Virus record (IMG/VR): IMGVR_UViG_3300042322_000140
Coordinates: 1-64,000 of that record
DNA length: 64,000 nucleotides
Direction: 5' to 3' (one strand)
Source of the DNA: a virus
Positions within the stretch are counted from its first letter, which is position 1. Each line of letters begins with the position of its first letter. Below, one piece after another: positions 30,512 through 55,700 of this stretch. The notes under the pieces were generated by a model, which was not told the origin of the DNA, searched no databases, and saw nothing but the letters and a program-made list of their open reading frames with translations. Made by a program: the position numbers and the translations under genes.

Positions 30512-32710
30512 TTATTTTCTACTAAATAACTTTCTTCCTAAAAACTCTGCATCTTTTCTATTTTTTGAGTCTATAACTATAGTTGTATCTCCTTTTTTAA
30601 ACCTATCTGTTAAATAATTAATATCCGGTTTTCTACAGTTAACACAGCCATAGCTAGCATATCTATTTTTTGCCTCTTGTGAGTATAGTGGATTTCTGTT
30701 CTTAAAATCATATGTTACATGCAATGCTACGTCTTTTGATTTTGGTGCTGGTTGTCCAAAAGCTGGTATAGGGTTTATCCTAAAACCTGGTTCTCCATAT
30801 ATATCAGCTTTAGGGTCCATTACATATGCACCTACAGGTGTTCCCCTAGATTCTGGGTGTGTTTCTAAATAGTGAACGCCCCTATTATTAACGTTTTGAT
30901 CCGGGTTTAAGGCTGTTAATACTGGAAATGTTCTTGTCACTACTCCATCTTCTACTACATAACTAGTATTACTTCTCTTATCTGTAATAACTCCATTTTG
31001 TAGGTTTTGAGTGTTCCCAATATTACCTGTTATAAAATCATTAAATATATCTAACCCACTTCTATTTGATAAAGGACTCCTGTTTTCTTTATTTAATTTG
31101 TTAACTGTTTTGGTATCATTTTTAGCCTTTCTTATAGGTGCAGCAACAGATTTTTTAGTTACAGGTGGTTTTCTATCCCATAGTGGGTTAATAGGCACTT
31201 GAGGAAAAAACTCATTAGTATTTTCTGTATCCATTTTTTTATTACTTTTTATTTTAAAATTTTTGTCTTTTAGTTGGCTTAGTAACTCTATATTAGAATC
31301 TCTTGAGCCGTCTGTATAACCTAATCTCTTAGCTTCAGACCAAGGGAGTCCTGTTTTTTCTACCCAGTTATCTCTTGCTGAGTTATGGTCAAAATTACCC
31401 CCTTCTTGGAATTGTTCTTGAGGAAACATTATGTTTTGTTTTTTTTCCACTGCTGGATGTCTTGTAGTTCTTTCCCATTCATCTGCTTCTTGCCATGTTT
31501 TAAAAGGGCCTCCTAAGTGCTCTCCTGTTTTTTTAAATTCTTCAATAGGATCTGCTAATGGTTTACCATATTTAAAACTAGGAATCAAATAAGCTGGTTC
31601 TCCATTTTCTCCACCTATAGACATAGCTAATTCAGAACTAGGTTCAGCATAAGGTATTCTATACCCTTCTGGTAACTTTTCGCTAGTTGGTTGTAAGAAA
31701 GTTAGACTTCTGCCGCCAGTTTGGTATTTTGACACCTTGGTTACACTTTTGCCTGTACTTTGTCCACCACATTTATGGCAGTTATACATATCTTTTTCCG
31801 TAGATTCAGATTTGTCCCATGACCAACCACAGTTAGTACACTCTACTTCTCCTTCTATCTCTCCCCCATCTTTGTAAGCTGGCTCTTGTGGTATTTGGTT
31901 TTGGAGTTGCTCGTATTGTATAGCTTCGTAATTAGGTAATTCTATCTGTGGTACTTGGTAAAACGATGAGTCTAATCCGCTATCTTGTTGTTGTTGTTGT
32001 TGAATTTGCTGTTGTTGCTCTTCTTGTTTTTGTCTTAAGGCTGTAGCTTGGTTTTGTTTAGTTTGTAATTCTGCTAAAAAATCTTTTTCTTTTTGTTTTT
32101 GTAATAGCTCTGCCTTTGCTTGCTGTGCTTCTATTTCTTCTTTAGTAGTACCTATCTCTGGAGCTGTTATGTTTGCTCCTGGATCTGTAAATAAATTCAT
32201 TGACATATCTGATTCATCCTCGTAATCATAGTTTTCAGATGCAGATGGTTTTAGACTCATTTTTTTAGATAGCCAATTTTTTACAAAACCTACGCTTTTA
32301 CCTTGTACAAAAGGATTATCATGTATTGCTCTAGTTGACATTACATCTGAAATTGGTCTGTTATCTGCTGTTTTATACAATTTTTTATAACCAACAGCCC
32401 CTAAAAAATGAGCCCCATACAAATCTGCATGGGTTGGCTCTATACCTAAGTTTTTTTTAAGGTAGCTTATATTACTATTAGTAAATCTAACAGCTGCTTC
32501 TTGCTGTAGTTTTGTATTAAATCTGTCTTTCCAGTCATAGCCTAAGCCTGTCCATGTATCCTTTGTAAACTGGTAAAGTCCAGATGCACTTCCAAATGGG
32601 TTTTCTGCATACTTCTTCCCTGCACTTTCTGAACCCCTTACTTTTGCAAAGTAGTTTGTCAAATCGTTTTCAAGTTTTTTTACTTTCCCTGTTTTATCTT
32701 CTATGTACAT
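30512..32710 (-). CDS. Virion murein-processing protein: transglycosylase, zinc ribbon, L,D-transpeptidase-like (732 aa)
   Basis: Residues of about 20-150 form a lytic transglycosylase-like domain with the catalytic Glu likely at E28 (GSESAGKKY) followed by GSASGLYQFTKDTW, the usual SxxGLxQF element. Near 220-250 is a Gln-rich linker encoded by repeated CAA. Near 287-318, CTNCGWSWD...CHKCGG is a CxxC-CxxC zinc ribbon. Near 438-470 is the WVEKTGLPWSEAKRLGYTDG module shared with the 950-residue protein. The C-terminus, near 662-732, has HVTYDF then ASYGCVNCRKPD, the His...SxGCVN signature of YkuD L,D-transpeptidases, also used by enzymes acting on peptide stems. It probably opens and remodels peptidoglycan during DNA entry. 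Its promoter (32745-32776) starts the cargo operon. Confidence 0.7.
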   Translation of the reverse strand: MYIEDKTGKVKKLENDLTNYFAKVRGSESAGKKYAENPFGSASGLYQFTKDTWTGLGYDWKDRFNTKLQQEAAVRFTNSNISYLKKNLGIEPTHADLYGAHFLGAVGYKKLYKTADNRPISDVMSTRAIHDNPFVQGKSVGFVKNWLSKKMSLKPSASENYDYEDESDMSMNLFTDPGANITAPEIGTTKEEIEAQQAKAELLQKQKEKDFLAELQTKQNQATALRQKQEEQQQQIQQQQQQDSGLDSSFYQVPQIELPNYEAIQYEQLQNQIPQEPAYKDGGEIEGEVECTNCGWSWDKSESTEKDMYNCHKCGGQSTGKSVTKVSKYQTGGRSLTFLQPTSEKLPEGYRIPYAEPSSELAMSIGGENGEPAYLIPSFKYGKPLADPIEEFKKTGEHLGGPFKTWQEADEWERTTRHPAVEKKQNIMFPQEQFQEGGNFDHNSARDNWVEKTGLPWSEAKRLGYTDGSRDSNIELLSQLKDKNFKIKSNKKMDTENTNEFFPQVPINPLWDRKPPVTKKSVAAPIRKAKNDTKTVNKLNKENRSPLSNRSGLDIFNDFITGNIGNTQNLQNGVITDKRSNTSYVVEDGVVTRTFPVLTALNPDQNVNNRGVHYLETHPESRGTPVGAYVMDPKADIYGEPGFRINPIPAFGQPAPKSKDVALHVTYDFKNRNPLYSQEAKNRYASYGCVNCRKPDINYLTDRFKKGDTTIVIDSKNRKDAEFLGRKLFSRK

Positions 32711-32781: not shown

Positions 32782-33714
32782 TTAAATATCTGACTCATTG
32801 AGAGTGAACTTTAAAGCTATGCTATATCTACTATCTTTGTCGTATGTAATTCTGTTTAAGAACCAATCCCCTACCATTCTTTCAAGAAGTGCTTTTCCTT
32901 TAAAGCTTACAGCATTTGTGTTTACAAACTTATCTATTTGATTTTTGTCCTGTAATAAAAATGGAATGTTATTAGTATTGCTCTTTACTCTATTGTAGAA
33001 GTAGTCGTAGTTCCATTTAAAACCATCTGGGTTAGTTATCATAATATCCTGTGTACCGTTTGTGTTAGTTTTAGGATAGTTTCTTGAATTAGCCGTTTTT
33101 GTTTTCTCCGGTATTAGGTTAATATTTCCTGAACATACAATATTATTGTATATCATAGACTTATTAAATGTTAATCCTATACTAGTAGCATAATCATACT
33201 CATTGTGGTATCTTTTTGCCTCTGTCCATATTTGGACATTGTTCAATGTCTTAGTTACAAATTCTTCTTTTATTGGGTACTCTACTGTAAATGGTTGTTT
33301 TTTACCGTAGAATACTTGGTAAGATTTGTTTGTTAATAAGTGAGACCATAGACCAAATTCTGAGTAGTCTGGGGTTACATTCATACCTGTTTGGAAGTAC
33401 TTATTATGATTTATATAATAGTTTGGCTCAAATCCATAAAAACTCATCCAGGAACCTAATACTGGAGAGTAAGCAATTGTCCAAGATACATCCTCAAAAT
33501 CTGTTGGGTTTACCTCTACTGGTACTACTATATTAGTTATTATTGGATCCACTACATCCAGACAGTTGCAGTGTGCGTTCCCGTTTTGTGTTAATACAAG
33601 TGTGCACCCTTCAGGGCACTGAATATCTGTTAGTACAGTTATCTTTGTGCATTCCTGAAATGGAAACGCTTGTATTGGTGTTAATTCATATCCTTCTGGG
33701 CAAGTACAATTCAT
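32782..33714 (-). CDS. Probable detached C-terminal part of the crAss-like muzzle protein (310 aa)
   Basis: The first 50 residues hold a Cys-rich segment with CTCPEGYEL and CPEGCTLV elements. From about residue 70 the sequence, DVSWTIAYSPVLGSWMSFYG, GLWSHLLTNKSYQVFYGK, then GKALLERMVGDWFLNRITYD, matches what I recognise as the C-terminal portion of muzzle (stabilisation) proteins of crAss-like phages, where it normally follows VFITKKDYIP-type sequence in one chain. Here that upstream sequence ends in the 2411-residue protein two genes away. The gene is preceded by the 635-residue gene at 11 bases and followed by a promoter. The simplest reading is a muzzle chain split into separate polypeptides. 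Confidence 0.55.
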   Translation of the reverse strand: MNCTCPEGYELTPIQAFPFQECTKITVLTDIQCPEGCTLVLTQNGNAHCNCLDVVDPIITNIVVPVEVNPTDFEDVSWTIAYSPVLGSWMSFYGFEPNYYINHNKYFQTGMNVTPDYSEFGLWSHLLTNKSYQVFYGKKQPFTVEYPIKEEFVTKTLNNVQIWTEAKRYHNEYDYATSIGLTFNKSMIYNNIVCSGNINLIPEKTKTANSRNYPKTNTNGTQDIMITNPDGFKWNYDYFYNRVKSNTNNIPFLLQDKNQIDKFVNTNAVSFKGKALLERMVGDWFLNRITYDKDSRYSIALKFTLNESDI

Positions 33715-33725
33715 TTTCTATATTT

Positions 33726-35633
33726 TTATGTTGTTACTGCTGTAAAACTTAATGGTACCATACTTCCAGATGATATATCTGGTGTAAAGGTATGTGTGCC
33801 TGCTGCTAGTGGTGTGCCTAATGCTGTAAGTGTAATTGTTTGTACACCGGTTCCTGCAAATACTCCTGTGCCTCTAAATGTTACTCCATTCGCACTTGCA
33901 ATAATATCATATGAACCTACACTTAAACCTGTTCCTAAACTTGTTACAGTTACTGTAAGAGATTTTGTTACACCGGTTGTTATTGCTACTCCTGCTGACA
34001 TAGTTCCTGTTTGTGCCCCCCAAATTAGTGCTGAAGCAATAGTACTCTTACCTCCAGTTGATGGTTGTAGTACTCTTGGTGCTGCTGATGGATTACATGG
34101 ATTAATTTCAAGGATCTTATCTCCAATAATACCTTGATATACACGAGTTGTCCCTACAAAAAATTCTAATCCTACTACACCTGAGTGTTGGTCATAATAT
34201 TGATTTGGGGCAGTCCCTAATACATTTGTTCCTCTTAACCTAATTTTTAAAGTCCCTACCCCAGAAGGTAATCCATTACCTATTGCTAATATTTCAGCAG
34301 CACTATATGTTATAGAAGATTGTCTTGCACCTGCTGCTGCCATATGTGTTGAGGGATCATCCCAATTAGCTATTGGTATAGGGCCACCGCCAGCATTATT
34401 CATATTTGCTATACCTACTGGTATACCGTTTGTCATAAATTCAAACCTTGCTCTGTTACAAGTATGTCCTGATGCAGAACTTAGTGCCCATTGTGGGTTT
34501 AGTGTGCCTCCAGGAACTGTGACAACTCCTATTAAACTACCGTCTAATCTTTGAAAAGTAGGAGTTGATAAAGCTCCAGCTGTTCTTGTCATATTTATTA
34601 TATTAGCAGAACTTGTGACTGTTATTCCAAGACTTAATAGTCCTGCAGAATGTGTAGTAACAAAAGTTGCAGCTGTTTGTGTTAAGTCTACATTAAACTC
34701 TATAAAGTAGATATGTGATTCATCATATCTAACTTCTGCTGATCCATCTGTCCCTGATAAAGTTATTGAGTGGTTAGTTGTTGCATTTGTATACTGCGAG
34801 CCTATTCCATCGTAAACTACTCTAGCTGTAAGTGCTGCTAAACATGTAGTTACTGTTGCTCCTACATTCACTACGTAGTTAAGGTTAGTTGTACAACCGT
34901 TTGGTGCAGTTGCTTGTATGTGGTATGTTACTACTCCTGCTACTGATGCTGTCAATGTGTTTGATATTGTTGTACCTGAACCAGCTATTGCACCAGTTAT
35001 TGTGCCAGGAGATGTTACAGTCCATGTAAATGTTGTCCCTGGTAATCCACTGCTAATAGCTATATTTACTGTAGCTCCACTTGCTATTGCTTGTGGTGAG
35101 CTAGGTGTTACTATTATATCTGGGACTGTATTTACTGTGACTATTACTTCAACTGGCTGCCCTTGGCATTGGCTAGATATTTCAAAAGGTGTTATAGTAT
35201 AAGTTACTGTACCTAATCCTGTTAATGTTTGTGCTATTACGCTACTATTACCTGATGAAGCCCCCATTACTCCTGATTGAACAGCGGTCCATGTGTAAGC
35301 AATCCCAGATTCTGTACTTGCTAATGCTATATTTGTTGCAGATCCACTACAAATAGTTTGCGGACTTGCAAATACGTCTGCTGTACATACACAAGTTGCT
35401 GCTACAATTTCTATAAGTGTACATGTGTCAAGATTTGGGTCATACGTATATCCATCTGGGCATAAGTCTAGGCCCTGTGTAATTATTTGACAATACCCAC
35501 CAACTAACTCATACCCATCTGGACAGGTTGTTATTGTGCATGACGGGTATATTGAGTCTATGTATTCACAAAAATATTCTCCTCCTATTTGTACTAGAGT
35601 TCTTCCCTCTAAGCATGTGCATGATTCTGCCAT
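33726..35633 (-). CDS. Cys-module and PKD-like adhesin protein inserted between muzzle parts (635 aa)
   Basis: The N-terminal 75 residues contain three short Cys modules (CTCLEGRTL, CPDGYELVGGYC, CPDGYTYDPNLDTC). Residues of about 80-265 are two PKD/Ig-like domains with TICSGSATNIALAST and TFTWTVTSPG elements, typical of flavobacterial surface proteins. The remainder is beta-rich with several long Thr/Gly/Ser segments, as in fibres, ending in a domain with GTLKIRLRGTN. No enzyme motif is seen. It lies between the 2411-residue and 310-residue genes with gaps of 11 bases on each side, so all three are made together. A receptor- or glycan-binding appendage attached at the muzzle is the likely role, inferred from modules and place. 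Confidence 0.6.
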   Translation of the reverse strand: MAESCTCLEGRTLVQIGGEYFCEYIDSIYPSCTITTCPDGYELVGGYCQIITQGLDLCPDGYTYDPNLDTCTLIEIVAATCVCTADVFASPQTICSGSATNIALASTESGIAYTWTAVQSGVMGASSGNSSVIAQTLTGLGTVTYTITPFEISSQCQGQPVEVIVTVNTVPDIIVTPSSPQAIASGATVNIAISSGLPGTTFTWTVTSPGTITGAIAGSGTTISNTLTASVAGVVTYHIQATAPNGCTTNLNYVVNVGATVTTCLAALTARVVYDGIGSQYTNATTNHSITLSGTDGSAEVRYDESHIYFIEFNVDLTQTAATFVTTHSAGLLSLGITVTSSANIINMTRTAGALSTPTFQRLDGSLIGVVTVPGGTLNPQWALSSASGHTCNRARFEFMTNGIPVGIANMNNAGGGPIPIANWDDPSTHMAAAGARQSSITYSAAEILAIGNGLPSGVGTLKIRLRGTNVLGTAPNQYYDQHSGVVGLEFFVGTTRVYQGIIGDKILEINPCNPSAAPRVLQPSTGGKSTIASALIWGAQTGTMSAGVAITTGVTKSLTVTVTSLGTGLSVGSYDIIASANGVTFRGTGVFAGTGVQTITLTALGTPLAAGTHTFTPDISSGSMVPLSFTAVTT

Positions 35634-35644
35634 TTTTTATTCTT

Positions 35645-38600
35645 TTAAAAATTTCTTATTGCTCTTACTCTACTTCCATTTCCTCCTTGACCGTTTGGTT
35701 GTTGTGGTCTTAGAGACCCTGCTGGTGTAGTATTGTAGTTATAAAATTGTATATTATAAGCTAAAGTGCTAGATGGAACTCTGCTTGAAGTCCAATAGTG
35801 AGATCTTCTTGTATCTCCATCTGTTGCAAAGTTTCCTATTACTGCCATATTTTGCCAAACTTTATATAATTCATCTGCACTTGGTAAATACCAGTCCGTA
35901 TAACCCCCACCTGTATAGTCTACACAAAGTTGTGCTGCGTAGTCTGTTGAAGTTGTAGATGTTGTGTAGCCAAAAGTTGAAAATAACAAATTTGTATTTG
36001 CTAATCCTGAACCAAAAGTGGTAGGTAGAGGAGATGGTAATGGGACTGTTGGAGAAAATGTTGTCATACCTAAGCCTGCTGTTAATCCTGGCACTCCTAT
36101 TGTTGGTAAATCAAATTCTGTGACTACTAATCCATGGCATCCTGAACTATCTAGGTGAAAGATAATTCCTCCTTGATGACTATCTCCAATTGCTAAGGTA
36201 CATACTTCTGCTAATACTTGAAAGCTTACAGTAGCTGTGTCACAATTTGTTAGGTTTAAATTTTCACATACTTGGTATGTTAAACTATGTGCTCCTATTG
36301 GTACTCCTACAGAAACAACTACATCATTTCCTGATAGTGTAATTCCAGTGTCGGTTGATGATACAAAACTTACTGTTACATTTGCAGGTATTACTGCTGC
36401 TCCATTTAAGGTGTCATTTGTAAGTACATTTGTAAATGTTGTACCTCCTATTGCATCTGTTATATTTATTCCTGTTTCATCATTTGCTACTATTGGTGCA
36501 CTATTTACTACTGCAGTTGCTACTGCAGTATCACAGTTTGTTGGATTAGCTATCTCACAAATTCCGTATGTTAATGTGTACGATCCTGGAGGTGTTCCAG
36601 CAGCTACCAATACGCTATTTCCAACAAGTGTTACGCCAGGATTGGTAGAAGATACAAAACTAGTTGTTACTTGTGCTCCTGTAACTGGTAATCCATTAAG
36701 AGTATCGTTTACTAATACATTTGGTACTGATGTTCCTCCAGCTGCTACCGTTAATGGTACTCCTGTATTATCATTTGCTACTATTGGCACACTGTTTACT
36801 AATACTGAAACTGTTCCTATATCACAATTTGATGGGTTTGCTACTTCACATATTCTATATGTTAATATGTATGATCCTGGAAGTGTCCCTGGAGCTACTA
36901 CAACACTATTTCCAACAAGTGTTACACCAGGATTGGTAGAAGACACAAAACTAGTTGTTACTTGTCCTGATGATATTGCTACTCCATTTAGTGTGTCGTT
37001 TATCAATACATTTGCAAATGCTGTTCCACCTGATATACTAGTTAGTGGTGTTCCTATATCGTCATTTGCTAAAATTACTGCATTATTAACTAATATATTG
37101 ACATTAGCAGTATCACAGTTTGTTGGATTAGCTATCTCACATATTCTATATGTTAACGTGTACAATCCAGACGGTGTTCCTGGAGCTACTACAACGCTAT
37201 TTCCAACAAGTGTTACGCCAGGATTGGTAGAAGACACAATTGTTGTGTTTACTTGTGTAGAAACTACAGGTAACCCCTCTAATGTGTCATTTACTAGAAC
37301 ATTTGCTACAGATGTTCCACCAGATATTGAAACTACTGGTGTACCTGTATCATTTGTTGCAATTATTTCTGGTAATGGACAATTTGCTGGTACTCTAACT
37401 AATTTGTCGCACATAGAAGTTTCTATATTGTATGTATATCCAGGTGGACAATTTGTAGTTGTTTCTGGGTCACAGCATTTTGTTACGTTGTAAACAAATC
37501 CTTGTCCTTCAATATACTCTATACATGGGTTTTTAGGGATATAATCTTTCTTAGTTATAAAAACTCTTCTGTATCTACTATCCCACCCCATTGTAAGCCC
37601 AAGGCCATTATATGGATTGTCTATATCTACATTTGGTAGGTAGTTTAACATTTTGAATGGTAGGTGTTCTTTAAACCAGTTTCTCATTCCACTAGCTTTG
37701 TCTCCTGCCATAGCAGATATTTCTATCATACCTTCGCCATTTGATGGTACCATCAATACTTGCCCTCTTTTTGCATCTGCGAAAAAGTGTCCAAATTCAT
37801 TTGAAACAAAAGTGGAATTTTGCGTTCCTCCATAGCCTAACCTAGTGTTATGGAAAGATGTAGATCTTCTTTGGAAGAAGGAGTTTCCTCCAAGTAATGA
37901 CATTACTGGACTAGATCCATCATCTACTTTGCTATCTACTTTGTTATATAATACAGATGTATTTGCAAATCTAGCTAAAATAGCTTGACCTTCAATATCA
38001 ATTATATCTTTTAATTTTCCATAATTTGAAGGAAACTCAAAAATATCCAATGGTCTATATATTAACCATGGATCGTATAAAGAGTTCTCTGTACTATCTG
38101 GTAAGCTAGCTATTATACCATTTGGCATATCTTGAGTACACTCATTAAATGATCTTTCGTAAGTATCTGTAAGTGTTCTTCTTCTAGTCAAAGATATTTG
38201 TTTTGAATACTCTGAGTTATATAAGAACACATTAGGCTCTCTTATAGATACTTTTTCTTCTTGTGTCCAATCTCCTAAATCTCCTACTAGTGGATAAAAC
38301 TTTCTATTTGATTCTTTTCCTGCATATCTGTAATTAGTATTTATTCTAGTTTCAGATAAAAAATTAGTTATACCATAGTAGTATAAATAGAATTTAGAGG
38401 GGCTTGTAATATAATTTCCTGAAGATGCAAGATTATCAAATATGTAGTCGCTATCAATGTCTGGAAAATTTGAGCCAGCATTAGAAAAATCTTTATTTTG
38501 CTCATAGCTGCAATAGAATTGAGGATTTCTGCCTATGTTACTATAAAAAAAGTAATTGTAAGGTGTTAAATCTGCTTGTTTCATTGCAGTAACTAAAAAT

Positions 38601-41600
38601 AGTGGCATTTTTCTTTTTAGGGTGTGCCTTGAGATATAAGTATCCCCACCAAATATTGGTAAACATCCTGAAGTTGCATTTCTAAGATTTCCTACATATC
38701 CTGTAGATAGCCATTTTATAGAGCTTATAGTTCCATATTGAGTAGGTAAATAATTTTTTATTGCAACATATGGTGATGCTATATTTCTTACTATCTCTGG
38801 GCTTCTCCCTGCTCCACCAAATCCGGATGCTGATTGATAAGTAATACTTGCATCCGCACCTTTATCATATATTCTATAATTATTAATACTAGCAGTAGGA
38901 TAAGTAATAGGCATATCTCCAAAGGATAGCAATACAGATCTTTCTCTATCAATATTATTAACATTTAATCTTTCTCCGGTTACTTCATTTGTTGTAACAA
39001 GTCTTCCGTCATTCAAGTATTTTGCAATATGCAGTCCTCTTAATTTATTCCCATTTAACCCAGGATCTAGCATGTAGTTATAGTAACCATCTGCATAATA
39101 ATAGTATGCAAAATTCTGTGGGCTACCAAAATCTCTAAATATTTTTAACCATTGGTATCTATATTCAGCATGTTTATAGATTAATGCTTCTGCTGTGCCA
39201 AATATAGCAACGATTCCTGCTGATATGAATGCTGGAAGTCCTATACTAGTACCTACAACAAATCCACCCATAAACCAAACTTGTGCATTAGATGTAATCT
39301 CAGCTACTTTTATTAGTATTTCTCCTGCTACTTCTATTGTAGCTAAAAAGTTTGCAAGACTTCTTGCTGCAGGTGATAAGATTACCCATTTAGGGTGTCC
39401 CTGGACTTCATCAAAATGACCTCTTGAGTTTCCAAACATGTAACCTTGAATACTAAGCTCTGAGGGTAGTCCTTGTCTATAGTAGTCTGTCTCTGGTGAA
39501 TGAAATGTGTAATTTCTATTTGATACTCCAAAAGTTACTCCATTTTCAGTACTTTGATCTTCTTCTAGGTTTAATAAGTCATTTTGGTAACTATTAAATG
39601 GGTAGTTTGAATAGTATACTGTTTTTGTGTGTTCTTTGTATTTTCTCATATCATACAAAAGACCAGAAGCTACTACTCCTCTATCTAAAGAGATGTCTCC
39701 TCTGAATACTTCATATCCTGATATTTTACTTCTATCACTTTGTGTCAACAATCCATTAACTACGGCTATGTCTAAAAATGCACTTATTAAGTTCTCATCT
39801 ATTGTTATACCCAATGGAAATATCAAACTACTACCAAATGGGCTTTGTTGTTTATTTGACATAAACGGTGCTAAGTCATTGTCTGGGAATTTGAAATGTC
39901 TTATATTAGCACAAGTAAAGTTAGCATTATTATTTAAAATATAACTACCATTAGCTACAGCATCTACAAATATATCCTCAAATTTTGTTCTTATATCTAT
40001 TGGTATTAAGTTCTGAGGTATTACTAAATCTCTAGAGTCATAAAGTTCTGGATTATCTGGGTATGTTTCTTCACTCTCCCAATAAGCAAACTCTCCTTTT
40101 CTATATGGTACAGCATTGCAGCTTTGTACTACTGGCTGTTGAAAAGTACATGTCGCTGTAGCTATTATCTTTTTGTCAAATCTAATAGAATCCCAAGTTA
40201 CATCTACTCTACTGTACTCTATATCTCTTTGAGTTACAGTATAACAGCTAGTTGTTGGCATGGATATGTACACTAATGCATTATTAGTATTAAAAAATGA
40301 AATATCTGTATCAATTGTTCTGCTTACTATTGGGCAATCTACTACTACATAATATTTTTTGCTTGTCAGCCACCCATTTGTTATAATTGGTGCTACTACT
40401 CCTAATGAATCTGTTATCTTTAAGCCATTTGGTGCTATACTTGAATCTTTTTCTAGAAGAAATGTCATTCCATCTGCTACTGTAATTATCTTTGAATAAA
40501 TAGCTGTTGTGTCTGAGCAACTTTTGAATATAGAAACTCTTAGCTGTGTAACTGGACCTAATGTGTCTTGTGGTGGTGTTGCCTTATCTTTACTTATATC
40601 AAGTAAAAATCTAGTTTTAGTTCCAATTTCTCCCTTGAACCAAAGTGCTCCTTTATGTATTTTATTAGTAAAGTTTCCAGATATTCCACCAATATGAGGT
40701 ATTTTAGAAGTATATAAATTATTTACTGTTGAGCTTATGTAGTAGTTATTAAAAGATGCCGCATTATAATTATCATTAGCGTTTGCATAAGTAGCTATTG
40801 CTACAGGATAATTACAATCTTCATTTTCAAAATCAGAGTCTCTTAATCTAACTGGGACTTCTTGGTTATTCCAAGTATCTTGTACTAATGTTCCTGGAGT
40901 AAATCCTAATGGATTAGTTGGATCTTGTTGTGGTGTACCTGTTGTTGAGTTTGTCTTATATATAGTGCAGGTTTTTGGCATTTTTATCCTTAGATACTCA
41001 GAGGGGAATACTTTTTCTATCTTTGTAGCCGCTTCATTTACAATATCTCCAACTACTACCTCTGTTTCTAATGTAGGTACATCACACTCTAACCCATCAA
41101 AAATATCTGTTTCACAACCTACTGCAGTGTAATTTCCATTTATTGCTGTACATATATCAGTTCCTTCGAATGCAACCGGGCAATCTGCTTTATGTTCTTC
41201 TATATACTGTGCTAATCCTACATATTCTGTTTCTTCTATATCTATAGAAAACATGTCTTGAGTTACATTATATACCCCTTCTACAATACAAGTTTTTGTT
41301 AAACTTTCTGTTACTGGTACTGTTTGTATATCTACTCCTTCACATATAGAACCTGGTTCAGAAAAAGCGGTGTTATAAAATTGCCATTTTTGATTTCTGT
41401 TTACTGAATTACATGATTGTATGTTTTTTATTATCGAGTCTACATCATCATTTATACCATTGCCACTTTCATCTACTACTAGATCCTTTTCTCCTGGTAT
41501 AGCAAATCTGCTTATTAATGGAAATAAAGCTGTTTCGTATCCTCCATCTAGAAAAAATCTTATAGATAATGGTACAACTTCGTCTCTATTATAGCCTAAA

Positions 41601-42880
41601 AACTTAGAGCTTAAGACTCCATTTTCATATAAGCTTTCAGGTGCCATGTGTGTTTGCCATTGTACAAACTCTCCTAATAAATTTATTACTGGCTGTAAGT
41701 TTATTTCTTTTTTTTGTGTAATTCCATATTGGAATAGTATATTATTAGAAGCTGTAAGTCCTTCTGCTTTTTCTATATTTAACTGATCTATTAATAGTTT
41801 ATCAAAACTTGTAGCTACTTTATTTTGTTCCGTAGTATAAACTACAGTATTATCATTAATTGTGTGTAGACCTTCTATAAAATACCTAGATGCTCCCTCT
41901 ATATCTGCTGTTTGTATTACAGCAACTTTGTAGTGAGAATAAGTCTTATCTAGGTCACTTACTTCTAGTCTTATGGCTAAATTTGTTCTACTTGCTAAGT
42001 CTTTTTGTTCTAGTATCCTATTGTTTTTATCAAATATTGATATTGGATTTGTTATAGAATAGTATGGTGATATTTCATTACCTGCTGCATCTGAATAAGC
42101 TATTAAAAACTCATATACTCCCATTTGTAACCTGCCTCCTAGTTCTATAGTAGCTGGTTCAATCTTAGGTATATTAAAAAGTTTAAATATTCTTAACTCG
42201 TTGTAATTGATACAAGGTGTAGTTACATTTACATCACAAGGTACATTTTGATCGTAGTATTTCCCATTATAAAGATCTGTGATATTTATGTGTCTTGGTG
42301 GATTATTATTATCTGAAAAATATATATTTTTACCACATTTTTCATTTTTGATAACTATCTTTTTTATTGGGTAGTTTATATCAAAGTTAAATCCTGATCC
42401 AGGAACAAAAGGCATACAAAGATTAGTGTTAACGTCTAAGTATCCATCTGCATCTGTCAGGAGTGTGGTGTATGTTTGTAGTGGTAATTGTGTTAGTGTC
42501 TCTAATGGCTCCGCAAGTTGATTTGCTTTGTTACAGTTATCACAGTCTACTAATATATCTGATACATCATTTGTATTTTGATTATCCTCTATAACGCCAA
42601 ATTCCCCTACATGTGTAGTGGGATTTACTAAGAAAAAGAATGTAGAGTTTGAGTCAATATCATTTTCAAACCCTATAACTTTAAACCCTAGTTTAAATTT
42701 AGAAGCTAGTATATTAGACTTTTCGTTTGTTAAATTTAAGCTATTACCAGATTCGTTTTCTACGTTTGCATTATATGCATGTGTATATTGAACGTCTGTT
42801 AATTGCGAAGGGTGGGTGTCTTTTTCCATACCCGTCTTAGCAAAACTTAAATTTACTTTCTTATTCTGTTGTTGTGCCAT
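35645..42880 (-). CDS. CrAss-like muzzle N-terminal part fused to Ig-like repeats and a lectin-like tip (2411 aa)
   Basis: Residues 1 to about 1800 look like a crAss-like muzzle (tail stabilisation) protein: DTHPSQLTDVQYTHAYNANV near the start, FKVIGFENDID, and late elements VSNEFGHFFADAKRGQV, MRNWFKEHLPFK, GLTMGWDSRYRRVFITKKDY. A hydrophobic stretch near 1160-1237 is unusual for a nozzle protein. After CCDPET...CPPGYTYN (about 1800-1827) come four 97-residue repeats (about 1835-2222) with NVLxNDTLNG and LTYxICExANPTNCDT elements, as in flavobacterial adhesins. The last ~185 residues resemble the DUF1566/C-type-lectin-like fold (GGYTDWYLPSADELYKVW, ending SRVRAIRNF). It probably forms the short tail nozzle with a receptor-binding extension. 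Gaps to neighbours are 11 bases. Confidence 0.65.
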   Translation of the reverse strand: MAQQQNKKVNLSFAKTGMEKDTHPSQLTDVQYTHAYNANVENESGNSLNLTNEKSNILASKFKLGFKVIGFENDIDSNSTFFFLVNPTTHVGEFGVIEDNQNTNDVSDILVDCDNCNKANQLAEPLETLTQLPLQTYTTLLTDADGYLDVNTNLCMPFVPGSGFNFDINYPIKKIVIKNEKCGKNIYFSDNNNPPRHINITDLYNGKYYDQNVPCDVNVTTPCINYNELRIFKLFNIPKIEPATIELGGRLQMGVYEFLIAYSDAAGNEISPYYSITNPISIFDKNNRILEQKDLASRTNLAIRLEVSDLDKTYSHYKVAVIQTADIEGASRYFIEGLHTINDNTVVYTTEQNKVATSFDKLLIDQLNIEKAEGLTASNNILFQYGITQKKEINLQPVINLLGEFVQWQTHMAPESLYENGVLSSKFLGYNRDEVVPLSIRFFLDGGYETALFPLISRFAIPGEKDLVVDESGNGINDDVDSIIKNIQSCNSVNRNQKWQFYNTAFSEPGSICEGVDIQTVPVTESLTKTCIVEGVYNVTQDMFSIDIEETEYVGLAQYIEEHKADCPVAFEGTDICTAINGNYTAVGCETDIFDGLECDVPTLETEVVVGDIVNEAATKIEKVFPSEYLRIKMPKTCTIYKTNSTTGTPQQDPTNPLGFTPGTLVQDTWNNQEVPVRLRDSDFENEDCNYPVAIATYANANDNYNAASFNNYYISSTVNNLYTSKIPHIGGISGNFTNKIHKGALWFKGEIGTKTRFLLDISKDKATPPQDTLGPVTQLRVSIFKSCSDTTAIYSKIITVADGMTFLLEKDSSIAPNGLKITDSLGVVAPIITNGWLTSKKYYVVVDCPIVSRTIDTDISFFNTNNALVYISMPTTSCYTVTQRDIEYSRVDVTWDSIRFDKKIIATATCTFQQPVVQSCNAVPYRKGEFAYWESEETYPDNPELYDSRDLVIPQNLIPIDIRTKFEDIFVDAVANGSYILNNNANFTCANIRHFKFPDNDLAPFMSNKQQSPFGSSLIFPLGITIDENLISAFLDIAVVNGLLTQSDRSKISGYEVFRGDISLDRGVVASGLLYDMRKYKEHTKTVYYSNYPFNSYQNDLLNLEEDQSTENGVTFGVSNRNYTFHSPETDYYRQGLPSELSIQGYMFGNSRGHFDEVQGHPKWVILSPAARSLANFLATIEVAGEILIKVAEITSNAQVWFMGGFVVGTSIGLPAFISAGIVAIFGTAEALIYKHAEYRYQWLKIFRDFGSPQNFAYYYYADGYYNYMLDPGLNGNKLRGLHIAKYLNDGRLVTTNEVTGERLNVNNIDRERSVLLSFGDMPITYPTASINNYRIYDKGADASITYQSASGFGGAGRSPEIVRNIASPYVAIKNYLPTQYGTISSIKWLSTGYVGNLRNATSGCLPIFGGDTYISRHTLKRKMPLFLVTAMKQADLTPYNYFFYSNIGRNPQFYCSYEQNKDFSNAGSNFPDIDSDYIFDNLASSGNYITSPSKFYLYYYGITNFLSETRINTNYRYAGKESNRKFYPLVGDLGDWTQEEKVSIREPNVFLYNSEYSKQISLTRRRTLTDTYERSFNECTQDMPNGIIASLPDSTENSLYDPWLIYRPLDIFEFPSNYGKLKDIIDIEGQAILARFANTSVLYNKVDSKVDDGSSPVMSLLGGNSFFQRRSTSFHNTRLGYGGTQNSTFVSNEFGHFFADAKRGQVLMVPSNGEGMIEISAMAGDKASGMRNWFKEHLPFKMLNYLPNVDIDNPYNGLGLTMGWDSRYRRVFITKKDYIPKNPCIEYIEGQGFVYNVTKCCDPETTTNCPPGYTYNIETSMCDKLVRVPANCPLPEIIATNDTGTPVVSISGGTSVANVLVNDTLEGLPVVSTQVNTTIVSSTNPGVTLVGNSVVVAPGTPSGLYTLTYRICEIANPTNCDTANVNILVNNAVILANDDIGTPLTSISGGTAFANVLINDTLNGVAISSGQVTTSFVSSTNPGVTLVGNSVVVAPGTLPGSYILTYRICEVANPSNCDIGTVSVLVNSVPIVANDNTGVPLTVAAGGTSVPNVLVNDTLNGLPVTGAQVTTSFVSSTNPGVTLVGNSVLVAAGTPPGSYTLTYGICEIANPTNCDTAVATAVVNSAPIVANDETGINITDAIGGTTFTNVLTNDTLNGAAVIPANVTVSFVSSTDTGITLSGNDVVVSVGVPIGAHSLTYQVCENLNLTNCDTATVSFQVLAEVCTLAIGDSHQGGIIFHLDSSGCHGLVVTEFDLPTIGVPGLTAGLGMTTFSPTVPLPSPLPTTFGSGLANTNLLFSTFGYTTSTTSTDYAAQLCVDYTGGGYTDWYLPSADELYKVWQNMAVIGNFATDGDTRRSHYWTSSRVPSSTLAYNIQFYNYNTTPAGSLRPQQPNGQGGNGSRVRAIRNF
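36200..37365 (-). repeat. Four tandem 291-bp coding repeats (97 aa each) in the muzzle/adhesin gene
   Basis: Four consecutive in-frame units of 291 bp. Equivalent DNA segments beginning ACATTTG lie near 37301, 37010, 36719 and 36428, spaced by 291. Each unit encodes the pattern ANDxxGxP...GGT...NVLxNDTLNG...SFVSSTNPGVTLVGN...LTYxICE...NCDT. The first three are closely similar; the fourth, nearest the C-terminus, is more diverged. Confidence 0.85.
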
Positions 42881-42891
42881 TATGGTTTTTC

Positions 42892-43755
42892 TTATAAGTT
42901 AGGAAACATTCTTTCGAATCTGTTTGTCTCTTGGATCATTTTCATCTTTAGCTTATCCTGCCAGTTTCTCCCAAGACCTTCGAATTTAACCTGCGTCATT
43001 GCAAGCCCAAAGTATTCTCTTTCTTGTTGTTTTATATAAGTTAGTTTATTTATTAGATTAACATCATCGTCATTCATCCATAAACCCTCTAATATTTTTC
43101 TCTTTACAAAGTACATCAAGTACTCTTGTAAACTTACTACATCCGGTATATAAAGGTCCCCAGTTTCGTCTGATGGGATTGCGTTATACTGCATGTATAT
43201 GTGGCCCTTCTTAAAGTTAGCTTGTATCTTATTGCCAAGGATGTTTATTTCATGCTCTGCAGAGTTTGTAAGCTGCTTTTGTAGGTTCTTGCAACCTGGA
43301 CTGCAATATTCTTTTTTTATGCCCTTAGTAAGCTTTAAAATAATTGGGTTTGTATATCTAAAGTTTATAACAGTATTGTTATAGTACTTTTTCTCAATGA
43401 TTTCTTTATAGCTTGTCTTTGTATGTGAATTAGATTGATTATCCCAAGTATAGGTATTCTCTATCTTTTGTGTGTAGTATTGTGAATCTTGTACGTCTTG
43501 TCTTGTACCTTTTTCAAACTCGTGGCTATCTTCTGTACATTTTACAGCTAAGTGTAAACTCCAAAAATCTTCTGGTAAATCAACTTGGCCATTCTCTACT
43601 TCTAATACTTTTTCTGTAAGTGTAGTAATGTTAGCACCAAATCTTTTTAGTTCACTTTTTATCCATAGATTAACTGACCTATAATCTATAAGTCCAGCTT
43701 CATCATATTGTCTTAGGTCTGAAAGTATTTCTGCTATTAGCTGCTTTCTAGTCAT
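42892..43755 (-). CDS. crAss-like tail stabilisation/ring protein (287 aa)
   Basis: The N-terminal half (LIAEILSDLRQYDEAGLIDY, then LWIKSELKRFGANI and GQVDLPEDFWSL) matches my memory of the P22 gp4-like or ring-type protein that precedes the muzzle gene in crAss-like phages. A CSPGCKNL motif lies mid-protein, and the C-terminal third (VSLQEYLMYFVKRKILEGLW, then EREYFGLA) is helical, suited to packing in a ring below the portal. The gene lies 11 bases upstream of the muzzle gene and 9 bases after the 180-residue gene in one operon from the 45000 promoter. It likely joins portal and tail nozzle. Family recognition is by sequence pattern only. Confidence 0.65.
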   Translation of the reverse strand: MTRKQLIAEILSDLRQYDEAGLIDYRSVNLWIKSELKRFGANITTLTEKVLEVENGQVDLPEDFWSLHLAVKCTEDSHEFEKGTRQDVQDSQYYTQKIENTYTWDNQSNSHTKTSYKEIIEKKYYNNTVINFRYTNPIILKLTKGIKKEYCSPGCKNLQKQLTNSAEHEINILGNKIQANFKKGHIYMQYNAIPSDETGDLYIPDVVSLQEYLMYFVKRKILEGLWMNDDDVNLINKLTYIKQQEREYFGLAMTQVKFEGLGRNWQDKLKMKMIQETNRFERMFPNL

Positions 43756-49757: not shown

Positions 49758-52700
49758 TTATTTAGTTATTAATTTGTTTACTAATTCTTTTAATTCTTCT
49801 ATTTGTTTTTGTTGTTCTTTTACTGCTTCGAATAATACAGCTACTGCGTTTTGGTATTTTACAGCTTTAGTGTTATCTTCATTTGTAACTACTAATTCTG
49901 GAAATTCTACTTCTAGCTCTTGTGCTATAAATCCTATATTGTTTTTTTCTCCACTGTCAATTCTGTCGTATAAGACTCCTCTTGAATTATTAATTCTTTC
50001 TAGTACATTTTCAATTGGTCTTATATTTTCTTTTACCGATTGATCTGAATATGCTACAATGTCATAGTCTGCGTAAATTGAGACATTGCTGACTTGTTGT
50101 GTTACTCTTAGTGGATGAGATGCTGTATTGCTTGAGCCAATTGTTATTCTAGATGTAGAAGATACGTTATCTATATGAAAAGATAATGCTGTTCTAGGTC
50201 TAAATTGTATAGCACCATTTGTGGTGTTATTATTTAGTATGTCCATATAACCACTAGAGAACATATTAATGCTACCACTGTATGCACCTGAAAACATATT
50301 TACTCCTGCTATTGCTTGAGCTCCTGTATTAGTATTTGTTATAGTTATACCACTTTGATAAGTTGCATCATTAAAGCTTATACTAAGTCTGTTTAAAACA
50401 CTTGTACTAGCTGGATCTATATAATATGCAGTATTGGTTCTTTCATAGAATATATTAAATCTGGCACCATTACCAAGAACATCTTGAGCTGTTCCTGCAG
50501 GGCTACCTGCGTAAAAAGAGGATGTTGTATAAACCGATCCATAATAAACTCCTACAGATGGATTACCATAACTGTTTGCAAACTGTAGACCTATTGTATC
50601 TGAGCCGGATTGTACAACTACTTTACTTGCTAAATTTGCAGCAGTTGTTGAATCAGCTGGGTTTATATAGTACGCTGTATTATTTGAGTCGTAAAATATT
50701 GGTGCTCTAAGAGAATCATTAGATTGGAAAAATCCTGTTTTACTTTGATTTGAACCTCCAGAACCAATTGCAGTTTCCCATGCTTGAAATGAACCAGCTC
50801 CATTATAACTTCTAAACCATAAGTTGTTATCATAGTAACTCATTGCCATTTGAAATCCATGGTAGTTACTTTGATTACTGTGTCTTACATTTATTGAGTT
50901 ATACCAAGTACTACTAGGCCAGTTTGAACCTCCACCATCATTCTCATAAAAACCACTATTTCTCCAATCATTAGCATTATTATGAGAAGCTATTAAAGAA
51001 TTAGTTGTCATCCAATCCGGTTTACTTGATACATTAGTCCAAGCTACTGCACTTGCTGAACCAGCATTACCAGTAATGTTTCCAGATATAGTGTTAGCTA
51101 CTGTTAATCCAACTAAGTTAGAGGTACTAGTAGGATCTATAAAATAACCAGTGTTATTTGAATCATAGAATATAGGAGCTCTCATATCATCTCTTGATCT
51201 AATAGAACCTGAGATAGCTGCTAAGAAACTACCATTTTCTGTAACAAGTAATCCATGTGTATTTAAGTTTCCTGCAACTCCTCCAGCATTTGGGTGAGAC
51301 CAGGCCATACCATAAAGGTTACCAATAGAAGTCCCATCTGCAGGAAGAATATAAGCTTCTCCCATTGAAAAGACTGCTTGGTATCTAATAGAACTATATA
51401 ACCCAACTTGTCCATAACCAAAATTTGTGGCAACTATATTATCACTATGATATAGCTTAGATATATTTGAAGTTAAATTAGGGTCTATATAAAAGCCAGT
51501 ATTATTTGAGTCATAGAATACAGGTGCTCTAAAATCACCACTTGTCTGATATGTACCAGTACCACCTGTTTTTGAAGTAAGTGAGTCAAAAGTGTGTGTA
51601 TGAGAAACAGCAGCTGCGTAAGTTCCTACATTACTTGAATCTAATACAGTTCTCCATGCTTGCCATGTTCCACTATTTTTACCTCTTATTGCTATTTGGC
51701 CAGATCTAAAATCTCCTGCTATTTGATGTTGCCAAGCTGAGCTATATGCTTGAGAGTATAATGCTCCGTCTGTAGCGTTTCCTGTAAAGTTTGGTACACC
51801 TGCTGTATAATAAGTAATACCATTACTTTCTAAGGTATCCGCATTTATGGCTGAGTTAGAACCTGTGTTTCTAAAAGGCATCCCATCAATTTGATCAGCA
51901 CTTGTAGCTGTGGCTGCATTACCTGATATGTTTCCTGTAATTGTATTTGTAACAGTTAGTCCAAGTAAATTGCTTGTTGAAGCAGGATCTAAGTAATAGG
52001 CTGTATTGTTTGTATCATAATATATTAAAGCATACAATGCACCTCCCCCATTTACATTGACCCCATATACAGCTGGATATTGCCAAGGATTCCAAGTGCC
52101 TGCATCTCCATTTCTTGTTCTAAATGTTATTCCATAGCCTCCACTGCTATAAGGTGCATTGAATTGTAAACCATATCCTCCAGCCTCAATGTGTGCTAAA
52201 GGTCCACTATACGGAGCATTGTTTGCATATGTAAATCCAGATTTACTGCCTGCTATTGTATTTGCATCATATCCTGGATTAGTTACCCATCCATCATACC
52301 ACCTGTTTGTAGCTGCTGTTGCATATCCTGCAGAAGCATGGTTACCCCATGAGTAAGCTGTATTCCAGTTAGTAGAATTATCTGTAAAAGGTAATACATA
52401 AAAGTTAGCATTAGTAGCCCCTGTATAACCAAGATCAGCTAATGTCATCGTTCTAGTTGTAATGTTTGTTACACTACCTATTGCATCTGAAGTAAACACG
52501 TCAATTACTTGTGCTCCTGATGTATCAATATTTCTTGCTGTATAAGCAGGATGAGTATACACCGTATTTGTGTCTGTAGAGGATATTGTTACAACTCCTC
52601 CGGCCCCGTAGCTTAGTGATACATTTGTTCCTGCAACTAAATCTAATGAACCATTAGAGGTAATTGTAGTTCTTTGTACACCGTTAGTTTTTAAATTCCA

Positions 52701-55700
52701 GTATTGGTAGTTATCATAGGGGTGTGTATGTGAGGCTAGTGCAAAAGCTGAAGCATGGTTACCATCTAATAAGTCAGCGTCTAATCCACTTCCTGAACCA
52801 TCGTTACCTGCATGCCAAACAATACTATTATCCCAATACAATACACCATTAGTTCTCATCTCTAAAAACTTACCGACTGTGCCACTAATATGAAATGCAA
52901 TACCTGTTGTTGTTGTACTATAAGATTCAGTCCATATAGCTGCTGTTGTGTAGTCGTTGTCTGCTTGAGCTTTTCTAGACTTTATTGTATTATCAGCTAT
53001 TAATAAGCTTAAACTACTTGTCCCGTTTGGGTTTGTGTAATAAGCAGTATTATCTGAATCGTAGAATATTGGAGCTCTAAAATCACCACTTGTCTGATAT
53101 GTACTTGTACCACTACTCTTAGAAGTCAAAGAATCAAAAGTGTGAGTATGAGAAGTTGTAGCCGCAAAAGATCCTATGTTAGCTGAGTGAATTACTTCTC
53201 TCCAACCACTGTATTGATCATTGTCCCATTGTGTCTTAAAATAAAAGTTTCCAGTGTGTGAACCCCAAAGTTGAAAACCAAAATTAGTACCTCGCAAACT
53301 TAACATTCCACCATAATTGTAACCCCCTGGAGGATTAGACCAGCTTCCTGTGTCACCTATTTGATCAAATCTTACAGTTCCTGCTGTAGATTGTAAGGTT
53401 TGAAAATCTCCACTTGTAGAATAGCCTCTATATAATCTAGGATCTGTGTAAGTGGTGTAGTTATCTGCATGTAATAAATTATGTGTACCTGTATTGTTTG
53501 TAAAAGTACCATTACCTCTAATGTAAGAGCTGTACCCTAAAGTATTAGAACCTATGTATACACCATAAGATGAGTTCCAACCTATACTATCTGCCATAAC
53601 ATCAGAAGTTATCCATGTAGATGTTTGAGAACCAAATGATAAATCTCCTGCTAAGTTTAACGCATTTAAGTTAGAAGTACTAGCAGCATCAATATAATAA
53701 CCAGTATTGTCTGTATCATAAAATATTGGAGCTCTAGAACTTCCACTAGCTGTTACTATACCTGTAAAAAAAGCTCCTTCACTAGCAAATGAAATTCTGT
53801 GATAAACAGAACCATTATTTTTTATGACTAAATGATGTCCATAACCATTTCCATAAGAGTAACCTAATCCATACATATTAGCTAATGGCCAAGACTCTCC
53901 AATGGTCCAAATAACTTTGTCATTAGTTCCATTTATATTATAGTCTCCCATAAGACCTCCACTATTGTTACTAACTAAGTAATCTGAATAAGTGAATCTT
54001 CCTGCTAAATTACCTGTATTTAAATTAGAACCTCCATCTGGATTTAGATAATATGCTGTATTATTTGAATCATAAACTATAGGGGCTCTGAAATCTCCAC
54101 TTGTTTGATAAGTTCCTGTACCCCCTGTTTTTGAAGTTAGAGAGTCAAATGTGTGTGTATGGTTTGCAGCTGCTGCATAGTTTCCTATATTAACATCTGT
54201 GATATATCTTTGCCATCCTTGCCATCCTGCAGCATAAGAGGCAGTTCTGTACCAAGAGCCTCCAGTAGAATCAAAGTACACTTGACTTGCAACGTGTCCG
54301 ATTTTACTGTAGTATTCCAATACTGTGCCATAGTCATCTCCTAATCCTGTGCCATTAAAATAATTGTCCCACATCTTAACAGACATAGGTTCTGTATTTC
54401 TAGGGGCAGTTGCTGGATTAAAATTAGTAGAAGGAAATAGTAATTGATTTACTGTAAATAGGTTTGTATTACTAGTAGATGCAGGATTTACATAGTAGCC
54501 TGTGTTATCTGAATCATAGAATATAGGAGCCCTAAAATCACCTACTGCTTCTGAATATGTTCCATTTAATAAAACTCTTCCTAAAGTATTTCTAATAGAA
54601 AAGTCAGTGTCTAATGCAGAGCCAAATCCTTCCCAAGCCGTTTCTGCACCACTTGTGTTTCTATAAGAAATATAACCAACTTGGGCCGCCCCAGAACTGT
54701 CGGTGTCTTGTATTACTAAAGCTGGAGATATAGATTGTACTTGTATTGAAGTACCTAGTACGGTGTCGAAACGAGAAATAAAAGCTGGGTTTACATAATA
54801 GCCTGTATTGTCCGAATCATAAAATATAGGTGCTCTAAAATCACCAGAAGTTTGGTAAGTCCCTGTTCCTAATGTTTTATTTGTTAAGTTGTTAAAATCA
54901 ACACTCCCTGCAGAAGTGGCTGATCCTGTTATACTTATTGGCCATGTCCCTGTTGCGTTAGTACCATCTGTGAATGAAATGTCTTTATATGAAGAGTATG
55001 CTGTAGCTGAACCATAAGTTTGCTGCCATATTCTCATTCCAATTGCATCCTTTCTAAACATAACTAAATTGTCAAGCCCTCCAGAAGCATCTTGATAACT
55101 TCTCATATGTAAGAAGTCTGCATAAGGGCCTGAGTTATTATTATTCCAAGATGTAAAGCCAAACTTTAATCTATTTGCTGCTAACTCACTTGGAGAAATT
55201 GTTCTGTTATCTTCTGATATTAGTGTTCCAGAATAACCCGATATATTTGTTACAGATGTTAGGTAAGTATTTGAATCTACAGTTCCATCTGCCTTTAAAA
55301 ATTGTGAAGCTGTTCCTCCTGCCTTAACAAACTTATTAGCTGTTATATCATATAGATTTGATGAAGCTGCTGGATCTAGATAATAATTTGTATTATCTGA
55401 ATCGTAAAATATAGGTGCTCTCATATCTGCAGTTGCAGTTAAACTTCCACCACTAGAGAGAGTCATTTTTTGACTTCCATTTATTGAAAATAGGTAGCCA
55501 CTTAAGCTTTGTCCATATGTTGGATTAAACTCTAATTGATGAGCTGTATTTACTTTAAAAACAGACAACACAAGTCCGTCAGCTCTTTTGCTTAAAAATT
55601 GTGCGTTATTATCTATTATTATGTTTCCTCCAGAAACAACTAATTTTGCATAGTTTGGGTCTGTAGTTGTGCCTATTAATACGTTTGTACCATTATCATA

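Follow-up and report, generated by a model that had tools for sequence, protein, structure and literature searches.

A crAss-like phage muzzle encoded as two separate chains, with putative adhesins at the break

Gene layout at the muzzle locus

The stretch of viral DNA analysed here (the window) comprises 64,000 nucleotides, positions 1 to 64,000 of IMG/VR record IMGVR_UViG_3300042322_000140. Three minus-strand open reading frames (ORFs) of 2411, 635 and 310 aa lie downstream of a ring protein 1 gene, and their lengths, strand and order within this 64-kb window agree with a preliminary description made from the sequence alone. The features of the locus, all on the minus strand, are as follows:

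42892..43755, minus: gene for ring protein 1, immediately upstream of the muzzle (Pfam CrAss_Ring_1, 62.6 bits against a cut-off of 27)
35645..42880, minus: muzzle chain 1 (P0001, 2411 aa), consisting of N-terminal muzzle body, hinge and putative adhesin tail (phrog_37948 match)
37526..42862, minus: muzzle body within chain 1, residues 7-1785, last strand GWDSRYRRVFITKKDYIP (phrog_37948 match)
37409..37450, minus: Cys hinge element CPPGYTYNIETSMC, chain-1 residues 1811-1824, at the break (motif, also present in other split and intact relatives)
35529..37493, minus: cassette of ~1965 bp present in the window but not in sister phage L001 (blastn colinearity)
36209..37360, minus: four tandem Ig-like repeats of 97, 97, 97 and 93 aa (DNA identity 59-77%)
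35732..35959, minus: Lcl_C / C-type-lectin-like terminal domain, weak match (Pfam PF07603, E = 2.2e-4)
35634..35644, minus: gap AAGAATAAAAA from chain 1 (TAA) to the 635-aa gene
33726..35633, minus: free-standing putative adhesin of 635 aa, with Cys cap, CPxGY hinge, two PKD-like domains and a C-terminal domain (PKD_5, E 4e-13; homology)
33715..33725, minus: gap AAATATAGAAA from the 635-aa gene (TAA) to chain 2
32782..33714, minus: muzzle chain 2 (P0002, 310 aa), consisting of a Cys-rich start cap and the muzzle C-terminal domain (profile match; top PDB match 7qok_A)
33547..33714, minus: chain-2 start cap, residues 1-56, with 7 Cys (profile common to chain-2 N-termini in split loci)
32794..33525, minus: muzzle C-terminal domain of chain 2, residues 64-307 (phrog_37948 match)

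The 2411-aa protein had been described as muzzle-type sequence passing through a CPPGY Cys element into Ig-like repeats and a lectin-like end. All of these were found, including VFITKKDYIPKNP and the CPPGY element, with the Lcl_C match (chain-1 residues 2308-2383, E = 2.2e-4 for the whole protein) falling under the Pfam gathering score. Among the 21 large ORFs of the window, CxxGY..C motifs occur only in chain 1, the 635-aa protein and chain 2. The giant proteins neighbouring the muzzle genes mostly contain 0-2 Cys. No DGR reverse transcriptase was found in the record, which may be incomplete, and DGR diversification of the lectin-like end was rejected on this ground.

Two chains of one muzzle family

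Chains 1 and 2 gave complementary matches to a single PHROG profile, far beyond what chance would produce. Residues 7-1785 of P0001 matched phrog_37948 positions 5-1739 of 2289 (1470 bits, E = 0, one stretch only), and residues 64-307 of P0002 matched positions 2050-2286 (E = 1.6e-61). The profile has the length of the structural protein of Cellulophaga phages phi17:2 and phi4:1, an intact single chain of 2289 aa that is 43-45% identical to the window muzzle over both parts (for phi4:1 and chain-1 residues 1-1830, 43% identity over 97%). The ∼310 profile positions absent from both window chains correspond to a nested insert of phi17:2 (∼300 aa), which lies in the loop where the window muzzle is split.

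The earlier recognition of the 310-aa protein as a muzzle C-terminus is borne out by its profile match and by single-chain homologues. In every annotated phage record examined (phi17:2, phi4:1, csAssE-Sib and Leptolyngbya phage Lbo-JY46) the C-terminal part is fused to the body in one chain, and these related phages identify the 310-aa protein as the muzzle C-terminus. The csAssE-Sib homologue, annotated as Muzzle protein, is intact with a ∼30-aa linker at the same loop; the Fipvunavirus proteins match in the C-terminal part and likewise form one long chain. No C-terminal muzzle domain was found within the 2411-aa chain, and the domain is present in single copy in the whole 128-kb record. The muzzle shares with crAss-like muzzles of the gp44 type both homology over the N- and C-terminal parts and a position directly downstream of ring protein 1, as in the gp43-gp44 pair of phicrAss001, but it is not a single polypeptide. 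The muzzle of this phage is confirmed to be encoded as two separate chains, which hold its ∼1785 N-terminal and ∼240 C-terminal residues.

Searches of P0001 and P0002 against PDB sequences with phmmer yielded no useful match because the muzzle is too diverged for single-sequence comparison. AlphaFold models were generated as monomers for the intact C-half of relative L043 and for chain 2, from shallow alignments (28 and 44 rows). The first PDB match of the L043 model (560 aa, mean pLDDT 78) was the phicrAss001 muzzle (7qol_P, E 1e-13), followed by the nozzle proteins of SU10 and cyanophage A4; for the P0002 model alone, too, this muzzle was the best PDB match (7qok_A, E 9.9e-6, probability 1.00). 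Both models match the fold of that muzzle. Alignment with hhalign gave the same affiliation for the intact C-half against gp44 (prob 97.7, E 2.3e-12), whereas chain 2 alone was not usable (prob 5.6), so that the intact C-half was required for this comparison.

Motif matching places the break close to residue 1197 of the 1371 in gp44 (GWDSRYRRVFITKKDY / DVSWTIAYSP...SWMSF against NNDVYFTYKDH / CLCYSELINQFTSF, the slash marking the break), where the phicrAss001 protein, a single chain, makes a tight turn. This position is C-terminal to the IG2 domain (residues 318-1021; PMC10172136) and within the part of gp44 comprising the propeller and the ring-joining domain. The phicrAss001 muzzle contains a seven-bladed propeller in addition to the ring-joining domain (PMC10172136), and from the sequence and the DSSP string we read the break as probably sitting in a beta-hairpin of the propeller region. 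When chain 2 was folded alone, residues 56-106 and 126-137, where the propeller strands that follow the break are located, had pLDDT <50; the corresponding strands in the intact L043 model are mostly at ∼90.

Recurrence of the break and the adhesins beside it

All six close IMG/VR loci are split, with differing chain-1 tails. Profile searches recovered 90 non-redundant muzzle loci, comprising 68 with intact muzzle genes, 17 split (window included) and five partial. The break lies at the same site in 15 of the 16 further split loci; L113 is split at a different loop and falls outside the main clade, and L061 has a third chain-2 type with its own N-terminal region, including sequence like the phi17:2 insert. 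Three contigs carry an HNH endonuclease gene between the chains (PHROG E 3e-63).

Trees were built from the core (85 rows) and, more carefully, from the core plus C-terminal part (32 rows). Counting strongly supported branches only, the split label needs seven changes on the former and six on the latter. A single clade of all split loci is rejected in an AU test (p 1e-5); an origin of the split as one clade is discarded, while an ancestral split followed by re-fusion is compatible with this result. The latter would mean that a clade of 25 members was split once, long ago, and that re-fusion with a nested insert then undid the split repeatedly, in place of repeated gain or transfer. All splits but one do fall in a single clade (support 100/98), and nearly all have homologous caps at the start of chain 2; yet at least six changes are required, the sister pair L051/L059 is in opposite states, the L061 chain-2 N-terminus is different, and L113 is split elsewhere, outside the clade. 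We consider the old split possible, if somewhat doubtful. The direction of change, repeated splitting versus repeated re-fusion, cannot be read from the tree; the split and nested-insert states, as judged from these sequences, do interchange.

The preliminary description also held that adhesins are exchangeable at the break. The differing chain-1 tails support this; the adhesin site is not unique to the break, however, as intact muzzles nest inserts at the same place. Those inserts are often von Willebrand A domains (clear in L131, just under the Pfam cut-off in L046, L054 and L062), and others are PA14-like (L063, weak) or a beta-propeller (L068). The chain-1 tails of split relatives include PKD, LRR, Fib_succ_major, DUF11 with DUF285, Big_9 and BACON. 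In this small and related sample there is a trend for the nested state to contain mostly closed domains with neighbouring termini and the split state mostly open arrays.

Hinge elements of the CPxGY..C type precede the adhesin in both split and intact states. A Cys-rich cap begins chain 2 in nearly all split loci, and its profile matched no intact muzzle at E <0.5. An odd number of Cys in the cap (7 or 9) was considered as proof of an interchain disulfide and rejected because several chains carry one more Cys outside the cap.

The 635-aa PKD-like protein does lie between the two chains, as first described, and its PKD_5 match holds, but its origin could be refined. In L001, L002 and L003 the chain-1 tail has homology to the hinge and PKD part of this protein, and in L034 the homology of the chain-1 tail covers everything from the protein's first CPxGY element to the C-terminus. 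A blastn alignment of the window with L001 is colinear as far as chain-1 nt 5387 and resumes at nt 7353; these points lie 40 bp apart in L001, and the window therefore holds an extra segment of ∼1965 bp. This segment runs from the remainder of the hinge through the four Ig repeats, the Lcl_C-like end and its stop codon to the gap and the start of the 635-aa gene (ATG and first 35 codons). Since the four nearest relatives are without this segment, insertion in the window lineage is the simpler reading, under which the 635-aa protein would be the old chain-1 tail, cut off by a newer cassette of ∼1.97 kb entering upstream. The start thereby acquired is similar to the chain-2 cap in L025/L047, at 46% over 28 residues.

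The PKD-like domains and the position of the 635-aa protein suggest an adhesin, and its Cys motifs, while not proof, would tie it to the muzzle. It could alternatively be an independent secreted or moron-type adhesin that is not part of the nozzle, in keeping with its separate gene and faster evolution (dN/dS about 0.4-0.6). This we regard as rather unlikely, given that chain 1 of L034 and of L001-L003 contains a homologous domain as a fusion, that the protein shares the Cys cap and hinge elements otherwise confined in the window to the muzzle chains, and that L045 is likewise laid out as three chains, with a chain-1 tail of another kind.

Junctions, selection and a proposed architecture

Both junctions in the window read TAA, an 11-nt A-rich gap and ATG, providing each chain with its own stop and start. 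The reading frames do not overlap at the junctions, the downstream ORF being open upstream for only 1-4 codons, and for a single codon in the window, and the frame offset between chains varies among relatives (0, 1 or 2). These features rule out fusion by frameshift or readthrough. A split intein or a group I or II intron at the break was rejected likewise, with no intron RNA or intein match in Rfam, Pfam or NCBIfam. Introns, inteins and stop recoding are known from crAss-like phages. TGA recoding has been described in the muzzle gene of phage Lera (PMC12386605). Removal of the break by any such process, so that one chain is made, nevertheless seems extremely improbable here, given the TAA stops, the short upstream opening, the varying offsets, the lack of database matches and a sequence between the halves that is unrelated among relatives.

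Chain 2 is under strong purifying selection, with a dN/dS of 0.07 against L001 (range 0.07-0.12), 0.05-0.08 in the conserved domain and 0.22 in the cap. Pairwise identities of the chain-1 core and chain 2 are correlated across 15 split loci (r = 0.94), as expected for interacting partners or simply from joint inheritance. That chain 2 is what is left of a broken and decaying muzzle gene, dispensable to the virion, might be suggested by its short and physically separate gene, but is largely refuted and very hard to credit: its conserved domain is constrained, it is intact in the other non-redundant split loci, it holds the sole copy of the C-terminal domain in the record and it diverges together with chain 1. 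The complementary profile matches, the genuine junctions and the 16 further split loci uphold the original proposal that the muzzle is split in two. No description of a split muzzle was found in the literature searched.

We think it probable that the two co-encoded chains jointly form one muzzle subunit, broken at the propeller hairpin, with the adhesin on chain 1. The end of chain 1 and the start of chain 2 would both lie at a beta-hairpin on the surface of the propeller region. A receptor-binding tail, borne on the free C-terminus of chain 1, would project from the nozzle, and chain 2 would re-enter the fold and contribute the propeller strands that follow as well as the final domain. The two chains most likely fold or assemble together in the nozzle, where Cys elements may staple the joint between them; receptor binding by the tails, the stoichiometry of the chains and any disulfides are presumed. 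Virions of phicrAss001 have disulfide-stabilised tails (PMC10172136). Adhesins would be swapped as a cassette of hinge, adhesin, stop, A-rich gap, ATG and Cys cap. In the window lineage, entry of a second such cassette into the chain-1 hinge would have left the older adhesin tail as a protein of its own (635 aa), possibly attached through its Cys elements.

A more general proposal, which in our judgement could fall either way, is that of a mobile, stackable stop-restart cassette in the propeller hairpin, which cuts the nozzle gene and adds an adhesin upstream, while its Cys cap re-attaches the downstream chain, possibly by disulfides. Repeated entry would turn one gene into two and then three, and the adhesin would be freed from the need for adjacent termini that applies to nested inserts. 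Since breaks of this kind recur in several related lineages, a split component combined with exchangeable receptor-binding pieces is apparently a workable way to build a virus tail. The nozzle gates DNA release, and the wiring of receptor recognition to this gate is not settled; if adhesins are exchanged where a nozzle is naturally cut, at one hairpin, that hairpin would be a display site and the nozzle a natural split-propeller system. In many crass-like phages, muzzle C-termini, adhesins and orphan adhesin genes will be overlooked or wrongly named by annotation pipelines.

By profile and fold, the phicrAss001 gp44 muzzle (PDB 7QOK, 7QOL) belongs to the same family as the window muzzle. Published variation in muzzle length (PMC10172136) concerns the crass and IG2 domains, and not the break hairpin as in the window. 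The nozzle proteins of SU10, cyanophage A4 and GP4 are structural matches to the intact C-half model but are much shorter single chains (for SU10, PMC9509320). Tail fibres of zeta crAss-like phages (PMC12386605) combine an Ig stalk with a lectin-like tip, as does window chain 1; unlike the window tip, which is on a nozzle chain in a record where no reverse transcriptase was found, they are separate, DGR-diversified proteins.

Several crass ring proteins are present in the record, with both CrAss_Ring_1 and CrAss_Ring_2 above their Pfam cut-offs. A single-sequence search with the phicrAss001 MCP gave no match in the record; the portal and large terminase, at 69-73 kb, are related to those of phicrAss001 (E 2.7e-15 and 4.7e-11). 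Going by the cultured relatives, hosts of the Flavobacteriia type may be guessed at for the split relatives. The Cellulophaga Lightbulbvirus relatives are listed outside Crassvirales.

Inserts in intact muzzles

The Flavobacterium phages FPSV-S29 and Fpv3, both Fipvunavirus, carry different nested inserts at one and the same muzzle loop; intact muzzles within a single genus therefore also undergo swapping. Two large inserts with NHL-like repeats (identified by eye) were found at residues ~640-1280 and ~1385-1735 of an intact sister muzzle:

L031, 6167-15379: intact sister muzzle, 3070 aa

These occupy loops other than the hairpin loop, at positions corresponding to residues 614-620 and 718-737 of chain 1 (P0001), and the hairpin loop itself is short in this protein.

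Second site and additional genes in relatives

A further site at which the muzzle carries an insert or is broken lies in its C-terminal part, flanked by YFQTGxN and GLWSH:

L025, 12846-13907: insert in chain 2 at this site
L113, ~9911-11100: muzzle split at this site

Two kinds of additional gene were observed at split muzzle loci:

L022, 16756-17340: HNH endonuclease gene between chains 1 and 2 (likewise in L024 and L029)
L045, 2809-3201: nucleotidyltransferase-like ORF, 130 aa

L024 and L029 also have an ORF related to the HNH endonuclease gene after chain 2. These endonuclease genes are possible drivers of exchange. The nucleotidyltransferase-like ORF overlaps the end of chain 1 and is followed by the homologue of the 635-aa PKD-like putative adhesin.

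Other ORFs of the window

30512-32710, minus strand: 732-aa protein
49758-56450, minus strand: 2230-aa protein
36237-37493, plus strand: antisense ORF of 418 aa, opposite the Ig repeats

The 732-aa protein, encoded immediately downstream of the muzzle, is transglycosylase-like at its N-terminus and has a C-terminal L,D-transpeptidase (YkuD) domain. The 2230-aa protein contains no cysteines and ends in an S74 endosialidase-type chaperone domain. The antisense ORF most probably results incidentally from the composition of the repeats.
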